From Staphylococcus sp. NAM3COL9 (lineage in GTDB: Bacteria; Bacillota; Bacilli; Staphylococcales; Staphylococcaceae), in assembly GCF_001431205.1 (NCBI RefSeq), contig NZ_LGPC01000004.1:1-64000 (forward strand): a stretch of 64,000 nucleotides of DNA, in the 5' to 3' direction. The translations under genes were made by a program, and so were the position numbers. The notes under the pieces are model-generated. The model had not been told where the DNA came from. It made no database searches and saw nothing but the letters and a program-made list of their open reading frames with translations. Of this stretch, positions 15,573 through 57,397 are shown piece after piece (positions within the stretch are counted from its first letter, which is position 1; each line of letters opens with the position of its first letter).

Positions 15573-15603
15573 TCTATTATAACGTAAAAATCATTAAAGT
15601 CTA

Positions 15604-15859
15604 TATTTAAATATTCAACGAATCATTTGAATTGATAATATATCCTCATAAGTGATAATTAATTATACATTTTCATTATTTTTTATTGCTATTAAATTGA
15701 AAAAACGTATTCATTTCTAGAAACAATCTATATTTTATATGTAGGTAGTAAAAATAGCAGCTGCCTGCCTCGCACCAAATCATTTAACACGAGTCGAATA
15801 CAAACTGTGGCTGTGCCTTTGGCAATCGAGTATGAAATAGTATTTGATATAGCAAAAAG
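15604..15859. other. Intergenic region without recognisable gene
   Basis: This stretch lies behind the PerR box and before the terminator of the ABC operon. It has no coding frame that I can support. A less AT-rich patch around 15760-15830 contrasts with its surroundings and could be a relic, but it matched nothing I know. Confidence 0.4.
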
Positions 15860-15880
15860 AGCTACCAAAATTTGGCAACT
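15860..15880 (-). terminator. Terminator of the stress/ABC operon
   Basis: AGCTACC (15860-15866) pairs with GGCAACT (15874-15880) allowing two G-T pairs. A run of T follows on the minus strand. It lies about 65 bases past the permease stop. Confidence 0.6.
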
Positions 15881-15943
15881 TTTTTAGTATATATTTAATT
15901 CACATCACGATGCTTACATTATACAAAATGATTTTTTGTATAA

Positions 15944-17542
15944 TTATATATCTTTTCTGTTAAATCCGACCGTACCTATGACACACAATATAAGGAAAAT
16001 AAGCATAAGGATCACAATCGGTCCACTTGTAAAATCATCTATAGGTAGACTTGGAATATGTTCAAATGGTGTGATATCTTTCATCCAATCTTTCACATTC
16101 AGTAAAGTACCTAAATAATTCACCAAAAAAGTATAAGCGAGATAAGCATAGACTAAAGTCGTTAACTTTATGCCCCACCCAATTACGACAGTTCCTATAC
16201 CAACAAAACTAAGTATAGCTGGTATATAGACAATAGCCGATTGAATAACCATGTCAAAGTCGAGTGGCGTATCCATTGAATAGAGTTGGCCAACATACAA
16301 ACCAAACCCAGCGACAAAAATCATCACTACCGCATTCACCACACTGATAATTAGAAAACTCAATAAGTACTTGATACGCGAAATCGGATTCGCTAATACA
16401 AGCATCGTGTATCCTTTATCTATCGCTTTCTTTATTTTAAATAAAGCTAACAGTGTAGGCACCGTACTGATTATTGCCATTACCAACATCAGTTGCGGTA
16501 AAAATTGTTTGACGTAATCTCCATTTGGATTTTCTAACATAGACAGTAATAGTGGATTATCTTTAAAAAAGTCGTCTAAATTTCCAAAAATAGAGCCATA
16601 AGACAATCCAAGTATAAATAATCCAATAGCAAAATATATAAAACTCATTTTTTGTAATCTGATTTGTAAACCTAGTGGAGACTTCATGTACCATGTCGCA
16701 TGTTGTCTTCCTTTTTTCTGCGGTAATAATTTAGCCTCGATATCACGCAAACCATTCAACACAAAGGCAAATATAGCAATGATAACTGTAATGCCTAAAA
16801 TGCACCACACCGGCCACCAATGATCTTCCGAAAAAGCATGAGTTCTAGACAACCAGCCCATTGGTGAAAACATAGATAGCATCTCATTGGCTACATCTCC
16901 AAACGCCCTAACCAGATACATGATGAGCAATAGCGCGATACTCACACCAGTCGTCTCACTACTTGATGATACAAATTGGGCAACTAACATAGTCAACGTA
17001 GCAAACATAATACCAAATACGCCTAAAGCCAAACTATATAAAGATGCGCCTGCTAAATCTAGACCATCAACATTTAATGACGCTAGACCTAAAGTGAGTA
17101 ATATCATTAAAGTGACATTAAGTAATACAGTTTGAAGTAGATGTCCCATCAATGGTGCTTGTTCACCTATTGGCAATGCAGTTAAAATGATTGTTCTACC
17201 ATCTTCTTCATCACCACGCGTGTCTCGAGATACAATTAAAATATTCATAATTGCTACCATTATTGCTGTGAATAAAGTCATTTCATGCGTAAAAAGTACG
17301 CCAATATTTACATGTTCAAAATCAGCTAATCCCAGCATCGCTTGCATCGCAGGATTTTTTGACATCTCGATAATAGGACTCATCTTAGCTTGACTCGGGT
17401 ACATCGACTCAAAAGCAGGTGGAATCATTAACGTTAAAGCGGTTAATAAAACCACCCATAAAACCATTTTTTTGCTATTTCTTTTTACATAAAAATTAAA
17501 TAACTTTAAGGTTTGGTAAAATGATTGTTTCATATCATTCAC
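15944..17542 (-). CDS. ABC-2 type exporter permease, two-unit (polyketide/antibiotic exporter type)
   Basis: This 532-residue membrane protein has about 12 hydrophobic helices arranged as two six-helix halves, each opening with a cytoplasmic amphipathic segment. This is the layout of large ABC-2 permeases such as those annotated as exporters of polyketide antibiotics. The motif RDTRGDEEDGRTIILTALPIG after helix 2 is typical. With the ATPase encoded just upstream (8-base overlap) it should form an exporter. The substrate is unknown. Being last in an operon headed by a sigma-B-like promoter, it is probably induced by general stress. Confidence 0.8.
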   Translation of the reverse strand: MNDMKQSFYQTLKLFNFYVKRNSKKMVLWVVLLTALTLMIPPAFESMYPSQAKMSPIIEMSKNPAMQAMLGLADFEHVNIGVLFTHEMTLFTAIMVAIMNILIVSRDTRGDEEDGRTIILTALPIGEQAPLMGHLLQTVLLNVTLMILLTLGLASLNVDGLDLAGASLYSLALGVFGIMFATLTMLVAQFVSSSSETTGVSIALLLIMYLVRAFGDVANEMLSMFSPMGWLSRTHAFSEDHWWPVWCILGITVIIAIFAFVLNGLRDIEAKLLPQKKGRQHATWYMKSPLGLQIRLQKMSFIYFAIGLFILGLSYGSIFGNLDDFFKDNPLLLSMLENPNGDYVKQFLPQLMLVMAIISTVPTLLALFKIKKAIDKGYTMLVLANPISRIKYLLSFLIISVVNAVVMIFVAGFGLYVGQLYSMDTPLDFDMVIQSAIVYIPAILSFVGIGTVVIGWGIKLTTLVYAYLAYTFLVNYLGTLLNVKDWMKDITPFEHIPSLPIDDFTSGPIVILMLIFLILCVIGTVGFNRKDI

Positions 17543-18431
17543 CTAATTCATCTGTGGCTTCATAATATCGTTTAAATATTGCTTCTAGTGTTGGTGGCAT
17601 AGATTCCAATTTTTTAATTTCAAATCGGCTTAGATATTCAATTACAGCAGAAATTTTATCTGAATCTACTTCAAAATAATATGCATTGTCTTCTTGTCTC
17701 ACATTATGCACACCCGTAACTTGTATTAATGCTCCTAATTGCTGTGCACTTTCTACCTTAAATTGCATACGTGTAAGATGGCGCATCTCGTCTAAAGTCC
17801 CAGAAGTGATCATTTTTCCTTTACGGATAATACCTACTCGATCACACAATTTTTCTACTTCACTTAAAATATGACTCGAGAGTAGTACACTTTTGTTATT
17901 ATTTTTAATGTCTCTTATGCATTCTTGAAAAACCTCTTCCATTAAAGGATCAAGACCAGAAGTAGGTTCATCTAAGATATATAATTTTGCATCAATACTA
18001 AACGCAGTAATTAACGCTACTTTCTGACGGTTTCCCGTCGAATAAGTACTACATTTTTTAGTAGTATCTAATTCAAAGCGTTTAATTAATTCATTTTTTC
18101 TATCGTAATTTGCTTTAGGATGAAGACTAAGAAAAAAATCAATAATTTCTCCACCAGTCAAATTTAGCCAAAAATTAACATCACCAGGTACAAAAGCGAG
18201 ATCTTTATGCACATCGACTGCATCTTTCAACGCATTTTTGCCAAAAATTTCAATGCTGCCTTTCGTTGGTTTCAACATACCTAATATCGCTTTAATTGTC
18301 GTCGATTTTCCAGCCCCATTTGGTCCAATAAAGCCATAAACTTCACCCCCATTAAGTTCTAAATCCACACCATCTAAGGCATAGAATTTACCAAAGCGTT
18401 TTGTTAAATTATGAATTTTAAGTAGGGTCAT
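17535..18431 (-). CDS. ABC transporter ATP-binding protein
   Basis: This 298-residue ATPase has Walker A GPNGAGKST at 36-44, the signature YSTGNRQKV and Walker B LYILDEPTSGLD. The C-terminal extension of about 80 residues is typical of ABC-2 drug exporter ATPases. I place the start at the ATG at 18431, eight bases after AAAGGG; a GTG nine bases upstream lies in that site. The signature reads STGNR where SGGQ is common, a variant often seen in ABC-2 exporters. It partners the permease whose gene overlaps its 3' end. Confidence 0.9.
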   Translation of the reverse strand: MTLLKIHNLTKRFGKFYALDGVDLELNGGEVYGFIGPNGAGKSTTIKAILGMLKPTKGSIEIFGKNALKDAVDVHKDLAFVPGDVNFWLNLTGGEIIDFFLSLHPKANYDRKNELIKRFELDTTKKCSTYSTGNRQKVALITAFSIDAKLYILDEPTSGLDPLMEEVFQECIRDIKNNNKSVLLSSHILSEVEKLCDRVGIIRKGKMITSGTLDEMRHLTRMQFKVESAQQLGALIQVTGVHNVRQEDNAYYFEVDSDKISAVIEYLSRFEIKKLESMPPTLEAIFKRYYEATDELGE

Positions 18432-18452
18432 ACGCGCCACCCTTTACATGTT

Positions 18453-18785
18453 TTATAACAGTCCTTTAACTCTAAAATCAGTAACGATTAAAATTATCTT
18501 GGCTTCTTTCATATCTGCATCACAAGTATCCGCATCACTAGAAGACACACCTAATATGCTAAGCTTTTCTTTTAATTCTTCAGCCTTCGAATCAAAATCT
18601 TCATCTATATCTACTTTATTATAATCAACTGCTGTAACTTTTAGATTTTCAGTAACCTCTACAGTTCGATCTTTATCATCTGATAGCACATATATATCTT
18701 GGCTACCAATACCTCGATCTTTTAAAGCCTTCACATCCGCTACTAAAGCCGAGTCATTTGTATAAGGTTTCACAACAGGTGCCAT
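18453..18785 (-). CDS. General stress protein 17M-like (YflT family)
   Basis: This soluble protein of about 110 residues has the YflT/GsiB-neighbour fold pattern: VVKPYTNDSALVADVKALKDRGIGSQDIYVLSDD at the N-terminus, then an acidic segment VDIDEDFDSKAEELKEKLSILG and a hydrophobic final strand IILIVTDF. Family members in bacilli are sigma-B-induced stress proteins of unknown activity. The start at 18785 follows GGAAAGGG. It is the second gene of an operon with a sigma-B-like promoter, which agrees with that role. Confidence 0.8.
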   Translation of the reverse strand: MAPVVKPYTNDSALVADVKALKDRGIGSQDIYVLSDDKDRTVEVTENLKVTAVDYNKVDIDEDFDSKAEELKEKLSILGVSSSDADTCDADMKEAKIILIVTDFRVKGLL

Positions 18786-18824
18786 AAGAATCATCCCTTT
18801 CCAATACTCCTACTTATTAATATA

Positions 18825-19223
18825 CTAATTTTTTGTCTTAATCATTAAACTGTCATATCTATTTTCAGTTATATAAAAATAAGTATCCTCTAACATTAAA
18901 TCGAACAATTCATCTCTGACCATGTCATCTGTCATTTTGAATTGAGTTTCAACCTTTTCTTGTTCTTTATCTTCAACAAAAATAACTTGATCTTTTCTTA
19001 CATCTACTGTCTTACGTTTATAAATGAGTTCGAGATGCGCACGTCCTTGATGTATCGCTTCTAAATTATCTATCTTATAGGCACTTTGTACAAAATCTTC
19101 AATTCGTCTTTCTCTCTGACGCTTATCTTTTGAAGCTTTAAAATCCTTTGTATACTTTAGCTTAACAAGTAAGTAAATGACTAATATGAAAAGTATTGTT
19201 ACAAGAAATAATAACGTAGCCAT
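18825..19223 (-). CDS. Small membrane-anchored protein of unknown function
   Basis: I do not recognise this family. The 132 residues begin with one hydrophobic helix (about 4-22), followed by a strongly basic stretch KASKDKRQRERRIED and a soluble domain with short strands (AHLELIYKRKTVDVR, QVIFVED) and an acidic C-terminal helix. The topology suggests a short outside N-terminus and a cytoplasmic domain. It is first in the operon, behind a sigma-B-like promoter, with the YflT-like and ABC genes following at 30 and 21 bases. The ATG follows a run of G that serves as ribosome site. Confidence 0.65.
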   Translation of the reverse strand: MATLLFLVTILFILVIYLLVKLKYTKDFKASKDKRQRERRIEDFVQSAYKIDNLEAIHQGRAHLELIYKRKTVDVRKDQVIFVEDKEQEKVETQFKMTDDMVRDELFDLMLEDTYFYITENRYDSLMIKTKN

Positions 19224-19288
19224 ACATACCCCCCCTTATTCGTGTTAATTTTCAATTAAAATTATCATTTTCCAATATTATAGTTAAT

Positions 19289-19313
19289 TTTCCCTTTGAA
19301 AATGCTTTTAAAC
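19289..19313 (-). promoter_or_regulatory. Sigma-B-like promoter, minus strand
   Basis: On the minus strand GTTTAA (19313-19308) and GGGAAA (19294-19289) are 13 bases apart, matching the sigma-B consensus GTTTAA-N12-15-GGGWAW. It lies 66 bases upstream of the membrane protein gene and would drive the whole four-gene operon. Confidence 0.7.
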
Positions 19314-19405
19314 ACCTTTAAAACTTAAAGTTAATTTTTATTGTTGTGAAATATTACTATTAATAAATTATACCTATTGACCAATAAAATTTGATAATAT
19401 ATAAA

Positions 19406-19429
19406 GTTTAACTTCTATAAAAAGGGTAA
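19406..19429 (+). promoter_or_regulatory. Sigma-B-like promoter, plus strand
   Basis: GTTTAA (19406-19411) and GGGTAA (19424-19429) are 12 bases apart, a close match to the sigma-B consensus. It lies 38 bases upstream of the VLRF1-type gene and points away from the other sigma-B-like site 93 bases to the left. Confidence 0.75.
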
Positions 19430-19467
19430 AATATGTAGTATGTAAGAATAATGAAGGGTGATATATA

Positions 19468-20253
19468 ATGCGTTTACAAGAAGAAATTAATAACTTGGAA
19501 CAATTCGATGGTAAATCACGAAATCAGAAAGTATTCTCAATTTATTTAGATACTAGTCCCGAACAAGGAACAAAGTGGAAAATTGAATTAAAAAATGCCC
19601 TGAAAGACTTATCCGACAAAACAAAAAACAGTGACAATCACGAAGAAAAAAACCAAGCAAAAGACATTATCAATAAAGTAGAAATTGAAATACAGGGCGC
19701 TGAACCAAATTTAAAAAGAGGTCTTATTTTATTTATAACTGCCGATGAGACATTAAGGTTCGAAAAACACGTTAATATTTCTATAAAAACTGAATTCAAA
19801 TGGGACGCAAAACCCAAATTAGATCAGCTAAAATCATTACAACAACGCTACCCTTACACTGGTATTTTAGTTTTACAACAAGACAAAGCACGTGTGATTG
19901 AAACTGAAATTGGTACAATTGTAGACGAAGATTATTACACTCTAGATTTAGATACTGATGATTGGAGAGAACATTCCGGACCACAAGGCGATGATTTAAC
20001 TCAAGGTGGCGCGCAAAGAGATGAATATAAAGAACGTGTGAAAGCTAATCAAGATCGTTGGTTCAAAAGTTTAGTAGCTAATATTGAGAAAAATGCTAAG
20101 AAAAAAGATTGGCAACAGCTTTATTTAGCTGGCGAAAAAGAAGAAGTAGAAAAATTAAAAACGATGTTCAATCGTAATATTGACCAAGTCACACCAAGTA
20201 ATATATTAAATTTAAATGCGACAGAAATTATAAATAAAGTAATGGAAGTATAA
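19468..20253 (+). CDS. VLRF1-family (archaeal eRF1-like) protein
   Basis: This 261-residue soluble protein resembles the bacterial VLRF1/aeRF1-type release-factor-like family. An N-terminal domain carries VFSIYLDTSPEQ (22-33), a middle domain ends GILVLQQDKARVIETEIG, and the acidic DWREHSGPQGDDLTQGG segment leads into a long basic helix region. Family members are thought to act on peptidyl-tRNA in stalled ribosomes. The middle basic-acidic stretch replaces the GGQ-type loop of true release factors. A sigma-B-like promoter precedes it. Function here is inferred from family only. Confidence 0.7.
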   Translation: MRLQEEINNLEQFDGKSRNQKVFSIYLDTSPEQGTKWKIELKNALKDLSDKTKNSDNHEEKNQAKDIINKVEIEIQGAEPNLKRGLILFITADETLRFEKHVNISIKTEFKWDAKPKLDQLKSLQQRYPYTGILVLQQDKARVIETEIGTIVDEDYYTLDLDTDDWREHSGPQGDDLTQGGAQRDEYKERVKANQDRWFKSLVANIEKNAKKKDWQQLYLAGEKEEVEKLKTMFNRNIDQVTPSNILNLNATEIINKVMEV

Positions 20254-20341
20254 ATTTCAAGTCATGCTAGTCACAATATATAAAAACAGTTTAATATGTA
20301 CTAACCTTTAAAAACTGTACTTTGCTTTAGCATATATTTTC

Positions 20342-20380
20342 AAAGGTTTGTTTCCTAATTTTCATAGGAGGCAAGCCTTT
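20342..20380 (+). terminator. Terminator of the VLRF1-type gene
   Basis: AAAGG...CCTTT encloses the inner stem TTCCTA/TAGGA in a bulged hairpin about 90 bases after the stop, followed by a T-rich tract on the plus strand. Confidence 0.55.
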
Positions 20381-20477
20381 CAATTTTGTTTTGATTCATT
20401 CATTGTTATAAAAATGAATATATTAATATTATGCTATCGATTATTTTAATTCATTATGGTAGTACTTCAACATAAAA

Positions 20478-20521
20478 ATGCCCCTAAAATTTTAGCTTTT
20501 TAAGTTCAAATTTGGGGGCAT
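20478..20521 (-). terminator. Hairpin terminator facing the minus strand
   Basis: ATGCCCC (20478-20484) pairs with GGGGCAT (20515-20521), with an A/T inner extension. On the minus strand it is followed by TTTTT. It is the second of two terminators behind the SEDS/PAP2 pair and may also stop plus-strand transcripts. Confidence 0.65.
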
Positions 20522-20551
20522 ATCCATAACAATTTATTTTTTGTATATTTA

Positions 20552-20705
20552 TTAAATAAAAAAACGTCAGTGATTTGAGCTGAATCCTGTGGAAAATCAC
20601 TAGCCAAAGTCTACAGGTTGAGGCTACGTCCGCGAAAAGCATACACAAAAGAACTGTTAGCAACTATGTCCATTCTGATATGGTTTTTATACATAGATTT
20701 TAATG
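20552..20705 (-). ncRNA. Structured 3' region or small RNA ending in a terminator
   Basis: Downstream of the PAP2 gene the minus strand carries a less AT-rich, non-coding stretch. It can form a TAGCC/GGCTA hairpin (about 20599-20626) and ends with the perfect stem AGTGATTT/AAATCACT (20594-20601 and 20569-20576) followed by GACG and seven T. It could be a long 3' untranslated region or a small RNA processed from it. I could not match it to a known staphylococcal RNA. Confidence 0.4.
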
Positions 20706-21284
20706 TCACCTATTGTTTTGAGTTGAAGTTGCATTACCCAATTTCAAAGCTTGAAGCATAGTCCCTATAATGAGTAAGCTACCTATTGTATCTGTAAAAA
20801 AGTGTGCGCGTAGATAAATCCTAGAAATGATAATCGAAATGACCAATAATGTGCATATGAGCGTGAACCATTTATTATTTTTCAACAATAATATGAGACT
20901 CACTAGTAAACAGACACTTAAAACGTGCATGCTTGGAAAACTATAGCCATCTATACTGATATCAGGTCTTGGTCGTTGAATAATATATTTAAAAAATGTC
21001 CCTATAAATAATACACTGAAACACCAAAATCCATACCACCAAAACTTAAATTGATTATAAAAAAATACGAATATTAAGATCATCAATATCATGAGTAAAC
21101 AATGCAATGGCTTAAATATATTAGAAATGATTTCAAGATACACAACGACACAGTTAGAGTTAATCGTTCCATGTAACCATTCATAAATAAAATTATCTAA
21201 AGGCTCAGTTAAATCTATATGTATACATATCATGAGTATCAATAAGCACAAACTCATTAAAATTATTTTTAAATCGTCTCTCAC
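20706..21284 (-). CDS. PAP2-family membrane phosphatase
   Basis: This 192-residue integral membrane protein has six likely helices and all three acid phosphatase motifs: KYIIQRPRP at 99-107, PSMH at 117-120, and SRIYLRAHFFTD at 154-165. Such enzymes remove phosphate from undecaprenyl pyrophosphate or phospholipid phosphates on the outer face of the membrane. The GTG start directly follows the stop of the SEDS gene, so the two are one operon. That pairing suggests work on the lipid carrier released by cell-wall polymerisation; the substrate is inferred. Confidence 0.85.
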   Translation of the reverse strand: MRDDLKIILMSLCLLILMICIHIDLTEPLDNFIYEWLHGTINSNCVVVYLEIISNIFKPLHCLLMILMILIFVFFYNQFKFWWYGFWCFSVLFIGTFFKYIIQRPRPDISIDGYSFPSMHVLSVCLLVSLILLLKNNKWFTLICTLLVISIIISRIYLRAHFFTDTIGSLLIIGTMLQALKLGNATSTQNNR

Positions 21285-38839: not shown

Positions 38840-39276
38840 ATCAAATACGAATTGCACATACGAAACACAGTAATAGGGAAAGTAAAACTTACACTGCTGA
38901 CACAGAGAGTCTTTGTTCGCTGAAAGAAGACACGGAAAGAAAGTTTGAAAATGGCCTTTGAGTGTTGATACCAATATGAGGTGTCAACGGGATCGCCCGT
39001 TATAGCGATACAGTATTAACATTTTGTTAAATGGCGTACTGGATTAAATCCACGCGTCGTATATTTCGTTAATACTCATTTTATTCATATAAGATGAGTT
39101 TTTTAATTTCAACGAAGATACGATGTCACTATTCAGTCTATGTTGCCTATTCAACAACTTGGCGTACTGGTTAAGGTTACTTTAGTGATAAAGTAACAAA
39201 CAGAGGTGGTACCGCGAGCTAAGCTTTCGTCCTTTACATCCGATTATTCGGGTTTAAAGGACGGAAGCTTTTTTTA
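38840..39276 (+). ncRNA. T-box riboswitch of the methionine operon
   Basis: The leader carries the T-box signature AGGTGGTACCGCG at 39204-39216. An intrinsic terminator follows (AAGCTTTCGTCCTTTA at 39221-39236 pairing with 39255-39270, then eight T). Uncharged tRNA would bind and favour the antiterminator. Staphylococcal met leaders of this unusual length are known to sense initiator formyl-methionine tRNA; I apply that by homology and position. An ATG near 38951 could be the specifier but was not proven by folding. Confidence 0.92.
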
Positions 39277-56965: not shown

Positions 56966-57397
56966 TTATTTAACAATTAATACTGGAACCGCACTCCTTT
57001 TAGCAACCTTATGCGTCACATCTCCTAAAACGTGTTTAATATTTAAACTCACTCTATGATTACTCATAATTACTAAGTCGTATTCACCTTGATTTATATC
57101 TCCAGAAGTAATTTTTTCTAAGATTGTATCTTTAACAGGTCCAAAATCTATCTCTACTTTATATTGAATCTTTTTTTCATCTAATTCGTGTAAAAATGGA
57201 GCAAGATCTTTTTCTTTTTCTCTAATAATATCACTCTTATGTTCAATGTAATTTTCTAAATTAGTTGCAAAATTTGCTTCTTCAACAACATGATAAACTG
57301 TAACAATTGAATCTGTATCAACCATTTTTGCTAAATGATCAGGAATAGCACTAAAATTATTTTCGAAATCATAAGGTAATAATATATTGTTAAACAT
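56966..57397 (-). CDS. Universal stress protein (UspA family)
   Basis: This 143-residue single Usp domain opens NNILLPYDFENN and has the C-terminal ATP-loop-like stretch VIMSNHRVSLNIKHVLGDVTHKVAKRSAVPVLIVK, in which the usual G-2x-G-9x-G-S/T is changed (H-R-V-S in place of the first glycines). ATP binding may therefore be weak. The ATG at 57397 follows AGGAGG by nine bases; a GTG six bases upstream is too close. A sigma-B-like promoter lies upstream. Role: protection in stress or stationary phase, by family. Confidence 0.8.
   Translation of the reverse strand: MFNNILLPYDFENNFSAIPDHLAKMVDTDSIVTVYHVVEEANFATNLENYIEHKSDIIREKEKDLAPFLHELDEKKIQYKVEIDFGPVKDTILEKITSGDINQGEYDLVIMSNHRVSLNIKHVLGDVTHKVAKRSAVPVLIVK

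Follow-up and report, generated by a model that had tools for sequence, protein, structure and literature searches.

Two adjacent candidate general-stress units in a Staphylococcus genome, one of them encoding a predicted short Balon-type ribosome hibernation factor

The window analyzed here, a 64 000-nucleotide stretch of the genome of Staphylococcus sp. NAM3COL9, probably carries two separate general-stress units placed back to back, of which the right one consists of a single gene for a two-domain, YocB-type relative of Balon that is predicted to be a ribosome hibernation factor. The initial annotation had described this place as a pair of sigma-B-like promoters that drive a stress operon and a VLRF1-type gene, and had joined the two in one module of export and ribosome rescue. 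The pair of promoter-like sites is confirmed and its SigB-type reading supported by the present analysis, and the VLRF1 assignment, the rescue function and the joint module are replaced by other readings.

Promoter-like sites in the divergent gap

The divergent ATG codons at 19223 and 19468 enclose a gap of 244 bases, and both of the sites that had been noticed there are present, spanning 141 bases. The left-facing SigB-type site, GTTTAA-N13-GGGAAA (19289–19313, minus strand; GTTTAAAAGCATTTTCAAAGGGAAA), has its first base 90 bases 5' of the ATG of the left operon, and the right-facing site, GTTTAA-N12-GGGTAA (19406–19429, plus strand; GTTTAACTTCTATAAAAAGGGTAA), has its first base 62 bases 5' of the ATG of the right gene, baeRF5. 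Each thus lies 5' of a gene and agrees with the SigB form GTTTAA/GGGWAW at a spacing of 12–17 bases. The intergenic region between the two ATGs has no Rfam match at the gathering thresholds; the only such match in the window is a T-box leader at 38861–39237 on the plus strand (RF00230, 96.9 bits).

The window contains two matches to GTTTAA-N11–15-GGGWAA against a mean of 0.13 in shuffled sequences, and one of 100 shuffles had at least two. Counting the pattern throughout the 2.73-Mb genome was tried and rejected as support, because neither form exceeds its reversed control: the strict pattern with N12–15 has four matches (two of them in this gap) against five for the reversed pattern, and the looser pattern has 30 against 37. 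The weight of the argument therefore rests on position, pairing and conservation of the sites.

The genome encodes its own SigB. A run of genes that we take to be rsbV-rsbW-sigB (locus L037), the names rsbV and sigB being assigned to genes with Pfam STAS-domain and sigma-70 region 2 and 3 matches, has GGTTAA-N14-GGGTAT just 5' of rsbV. A similar site, GTTTTT-N14-GGGTAT, lies 5' of a 182-aa ORF that opens a gene run ending in a Pfam Asp23 match, presumably asp23. These two sites served as internal positive controls. A further SigB-type site is possible within the window itself: ATTTAA-N13-GGGTAT (11 of 12 positions) is found 74 bases 5' of a minus-strand ORF that starts near 57397 and resembles a universal stress protein by eye.

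The left site is conserved without change of pattern. GTTTAA-N13-GGGAAA precedes the first gene of the left operon in all seven orthologous loci, 83–93 bases 5' of the ATG. Two of these loci (L150 and L151) belong to genomes that lack the right gene; the other five are the window, S. nepalensis and three genomes of S. equorum type. The right site is conserved in a looser form: all 10 distinct Staphylococcus loci (11 rows, L051 and L079 being the same locus) have a GTTTAA –35 element, a 12-base spacer and GG at –10 positions 2–3, and score 10–12 of 12 to GTTTAA/GGGWAW. The complete –10 element, GGGTAA, is limited to the source genome, the other nine loci having AGGTAA, AGGCAA or AGGAAA, and for this reason the pattern GTTT-NN-N12–15-GGGWA matches just one of the 11 Staphylococcus rows.

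Outside the genus, a second family of the order, f4, which we take to be Salinicoccaceae, has the same pattern upstream of 19 of its 21 orthologues, against 0.21 expected by shuffling; in one locus (L069) the site is 5' of an ATG and not of the GTG initially chosen as start codon, and use of the ATG would give 20 of 21. Among other Bacilli it precedes six of 21 orthologues (0.32 expected), and its loose form 11 of 21 (2.77 expected), in a class-level set that leaves out the partial frames L106 and L109. Six PF18846 matches lacking loci (G110, G111, G112 and three others) are outside all of these promoter counts. No site scoring at least 9 was found in nine of the 21 other Bacilli loci; in six of these, all from one family, the copy lies close behind an upstream gene. 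Copies without a SigB-like site include L090, L092, L097, L099, L101 and L102; where neighbours are listed, the upstream gene encodes a membrane protein (antiporter-like by eye), and genomes of this family can hold two baeRF5 matches. Neither of two distant three-domain relatives has the SigB-type pattern.

As background, of 248 regions lying upstream of other ORFs 26 score at least 10, seven of which belong to the left operon and three to baeRF5 genes with another start; a score of at least 11 is reached by 14 of the 248, including seven from the left operon, two from target genes with another start and three from DUF3243-type genes.

The view that both sites arose by chance in DNA rich in A+T, and that the genes are served by the housekeeping sigma factor, can draw on the genome-wide counts given above and on a weak minus-strand sigma-70-like site at 19421–19394 (9 of 12), which could serve the left operon. 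Sigma-70-like matches as a class, however, are as frequent as chance predicts (27 against 27.4 expected), and SigB-type sites recur before baeRF5 across families while the neighbouring genes change, so that we consider this explanation improbable. Sigma-B-like control on both sides, as first proposed, is supported by the conservation of sites across loci and by the presence of SigB in the genome. One point calls for caution: the 12-base spacer of the right site is short, and this speaks against the SigB reading in view of the B. subtilis promoter PykaA, which has an N12 spacer and is described in an excerpt of PMC9847131 as without clear SigB dependence.

The right gene and its product

The right gene (19468–20253, plus strand) encodes a 261-aa protein and is followed by a terminator-like hairpin of 16 pairs (20342–20380, plus strand; terminator scan). 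Pfam places the protein in baeRF_family5 (PF18846, E 4e-41, 140.6 bits against a cut-off of 27), then in families 12 and 10; at E 0.001 or better these are its only families, and none named VLRF1 is among them. Its nearest named relatives are proteins of Staphylococcus equorum, with 95 and 93% identity over 260 residues. The best NCBIfam model is that of the MSMEG_1130 ribosome hibernation factor (NF052288), to which the protein scores 60.4 bits, far below the curated cut-off of 480.

The closest solved relative is Balon. A nine-sequence profile compared with all PDB sequences matched Balon MSMEG_1130 (E 2e-5) and nothing else up to E 1. The AlphaFold model, built with an eight-sequence alignment, is of modest confidence (pLDDT 66, pTM 0.49); when it was used as a Foldseek query, the top five chains were all Balon (E 9e-11 to 6e-9, TM-score by query 0.48–0.62). 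VIA-align superposed it on chain 8v9l_z (MSMEG_1130) with Z 16.3 and an rmsd of 4.9 over 242 residues, within residues 5–256 of the 375 in that chain. Only two MSMEG_1130 chains rank above human eRF1 (Z 14.7), and Psychrobacter Balon (Z 12.8–12.9) and Rv2629 (Z 11.8) rank below it; the fold match is therefore to the aeRF1 superfamily, with MSMEG_1130 first.

By profile, Foldseek and VIA-align, then, the predicted protein appears to have the aeRF1-like N and middle domains of Balon, MSMEG_1130 and Rv2629, with which it aligns over its whole 261 residues, and like them it has no GGQ. It differs from them in having no counterpart of their C-terminal domain, of about 120 residues, which contacts EF-Tu. 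Short length is general in the alignment: of 49 short-type proteins, 48 are below 300 aa and one, with an early start, has 301, while two distant rows of the same alignment have 396. One baeRF family has kept the N domain and lost the Pelota domain, according to an excerpt of PMC6514570.

The position of the aeRF1 GGQ loop is occupied by QGGAQ in the window protein, by QGGSK in the S. xylosus group and by QGGAK in S. nepalensis, and the length of this loop varies widely across the family. An xP pair after an early strand, a possible counterpart of the HP motif that Balon has at the decoding centre, reads SP in the window protein and HP in the S. xylosus group. In the family tree the Staphylococcus rows group together (100/100), as do those of the second family (93/100), on an unresolved backbone with long branches flagged.

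A VLRF1-type factor that acts catalytically in rescue or release, freeing stalled nascent chains, would suit the aeRF1 superfamily fold, in which human eRF1 comes close behind Balon, and would suit the QGGAQ of the window protein. Against it stand the lack of any VLRF1-named Pfam match, the K that replaces the Q in S. xylosus-group and S. nepalensis proteins, and the variable loop length; moreover, most baeRF-1 families usually lack the catalytic glutamine and have been suggested to be inactive, as stated in the excerpted text of PMC6514570. We give a catalytic role little credence. With no conserved GGQ and a loop of variable length, hibernation is the better reading and, judged from the protein sequences, the likelier function of the right protein.

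The left operon and its neighbours

To the left run a membrane protein, a YflT protein and an ABC-2 exporter, as had been annotated at first; the YflT, ATPase and permease assignments now have Pfam matches. The first gene (18825–19223, minus strand, like all that follow) encodes a 132-aa protein without a Pfam or NCBIfam family, with an N-terminal hydrophobic segment recognized by eye. The second (18453–18794) encodes a YflT-domain general stress protein (PF11181, E 7e-11) with in-frame ATGs at 18794 and 18785. The third (17535–18440) encodes a DrrA-like ABC transporter ATPase (PF00005 and PF13732) that starts at GTG 18440 or ATG 18431 and scores below the cut-off of model TIGR01188. The start of the fourth (15944–17542), which encodes an ABC-2 type permease (PF12679, E 4e-9) of 532 aa with a GTG start, overlaps the end of the ATPase gene. 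A terminator-like hairpin lies 3' of the permease gene at 15860–15880. The scan that detected it, run over 15600–20800, yielded six terminator-like sites against 2.3 expected in shuffles; it gave two within the permease gene and none on the minus strand from 17535 to 19223. Because the gaps are short and no terminator-like site intervenes, the four genes are probably co-transcribed. The left operon is a conserved candidate SigB unit, tentatively read as a stress-induced membrane-YflT pair combined with an ABC exporter.

The YflT domain, above its cut-off here, is shared with general stress YflT proteins, and a table of PMC7824861 includes yflT among the SigB genes with experimental verification. 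The present gene differs in being partnered by a small membrane protein and an ABC exporter, and in that its genome has a second membrane-YflT pair. This second pair (L155:2379-3161; G000:C16:527878-528660), also present in other S. equorum-type genomes, has a weaker SigB-like site, GTTTTG-N13-TGGTAA, upstream. Weaker sites of this kind (GTTTTG or GTTTTT-N13-TGGTAW, 9 of 12) precede the pair in all eight loci scored, namely the second pairs and the pairs of four S. xylosus-group genomes, with L121 (G035) outside the set; a score of 9 is common, being reached by 70 of the 248 background upstream regions.

The baeRF5 gene, seen in S. equorum-, S. xylosus- and S. nepalensis-type staphylococci, occurs in nine of 81 sampled Staphylococcus genomes, the source genome included, and in one more found by further search. 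Five of these 10 have the divergent arrangement, namely the source genome, S. nepalensis and three genomes of S. equorum type. In the S. xylosus group, baeRF5 with its own site faces a sugar-transporter gene in all four loci (L017–L020), three of which were scanned for a leftward SigB-type site and had none; three of the four (not L018) have an ABC pair, judged similar by eye, behind the transporter at a distance of one gene, and the membrane-YflT pair is on other contigs or far from baeRF5. Conversely, L150 and L151 keep the membrane-YflT pair and its promoter in genomes where baeRF5 is absent at E 0.001. There the pair again adjoins the ftsW-PAP2-deaminase block, recognized by eye and supported in other loci by Pfam matches for PAP2 and the deaminase, and no ABC pair was found after the membrane-YflT pair.

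In other Bacilli the neighbours of baeRF5 differ. In one genus (g72; L089, L094, L098 and L100) a divergent DUF3243-type gene (Pfam checked in one locus) lies just upstream and faces baeRF5; SigB-like sites on both sides score at least 11 in three of the four loci, and one side of the fourth scores 10. Back-to-back stress promoters thus recur around baeRF5 with differing partners, which fits simple sharing of a stress-responsive region.

We consider it very improbable that the divergent pair stays together as a single stress module with cooperation between ABC export and action on the ribosome: the arrangement in five of 10 genomes, the nearby ABC pair of the S. xylosus group and the paired sites of g72 can be cited for it, but the membrane-YflT pair lives on without baeRF5 in L150 and L151, baeRF5 lives on without an adjoining membrane-YflT pair in the S. 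xylosus group, where it faces a transporter gene with no leftward site in the scanned loci, and the partners change in other Bacilli. Since each half is found without the other, the place looks like two adjacent stress units, not one new machine, and the shared module joining export and ribosome rescue is not supported. Their closeness looks like the result of shared stress control and locus history.

Proposed action and relation to known factors

From the genes, the promoter-like sites with their conservation, the family and fold matches, the missing C-terminal domain and the lack of GGQ we infer a course of events that includes SigB dependence, co-transcription, ribosome binding and independence of EF-Tu. 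SigB RNA polymerase would transcribe leftward from 19289–19313 through the membrane protein, YflT, ABC ATPase and ABC-2 permease genes, as one transcript ending at the hairpin 15880–15860, and rightward from 19406–19429 through the single gene baeRF5. The level of the baeRF5 protein would rise through SigB during stress or stationary phase, and the protein would enter the ribosomal A site, the N domain pointing to the decoding centre and the middle domain to the peptidyl-transferase centre, and would block translation while leaving the nascent chain uncut. Because it has no C-terminal domain, the protein would act without the EF-Tu contact that Balon makes.

The nearest precedent is YocB. The B. 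subtilis control genome has a PF18846 match, and a B. subtilis-group locus, which we take to be yocB from the order of its yoc genes, encodes a 260-aa PF18846 protein with GTTTTT-N15-GGGAAA before the gene. The staphylococcal gene thus shares with the presumed yocB its Pfam family, its two-domain length and an upstream SigB-type site, and differs in its diverged sequence and its neighbours. YocB is reported, in an excerpt of PMC10901736, to be homologous to Balon and to be induced in stationary phase and by heat and cold; yocB is also listed in the SigB regulon in the excerpted part of PMC7824861. A SigB-controlled Balon-like gene was therefore known in parts. The same excerpt of PMC10901736 reports S. 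aureus as being without Balon, and states that homologues of fewer than 300 residues were dropped from its survey.

Among the literature matches listed and their passages, no description was found of the staphylococcal occurrence, of the conservation of sites across families or of the divergent pair. What is new here is the baeRF5 gene in staphylococci and the predicted SigB-type sites that are kept across families.

A hibernation factor with a SigB-type promoter also has a likeness in S. aureus, where hpf, encoding a different factor, has a SigB-dependent promoter with a consensus site, as given in an excerpt of PMC6256015. The source genome contains a long-form hpf (L149; G000:C14:220000-225500). 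It was considered as a second SigB-controlled hibernation gene and rejected, the sites before hpf and before the comFA-like and DegV-like genes of its operon (names by eye) being weakly SigB-like.

More tentatively, and with somewhat less than even confidence, we propose that a short class of Balon, induced by SigB, exists in Bacilli, several staphylococci among them, and that it hibernates ribosomes by its N and middle domains alone, free of EF-Tu. It would represent a natural deletion in which blocking of the A site is uncoupled from engagement of EF-Tu. The role of EF-Tu in the action of Balon is stated as an open question in the excerpted text of PMC10901736. If the baeRF5 protein binds ribosomes, that role would become directly testable, and A-site hibernation would be tied to the general stress response; the short protein would be useful mainly as a natural test of the purpose of Balon's EF-Tu domain.
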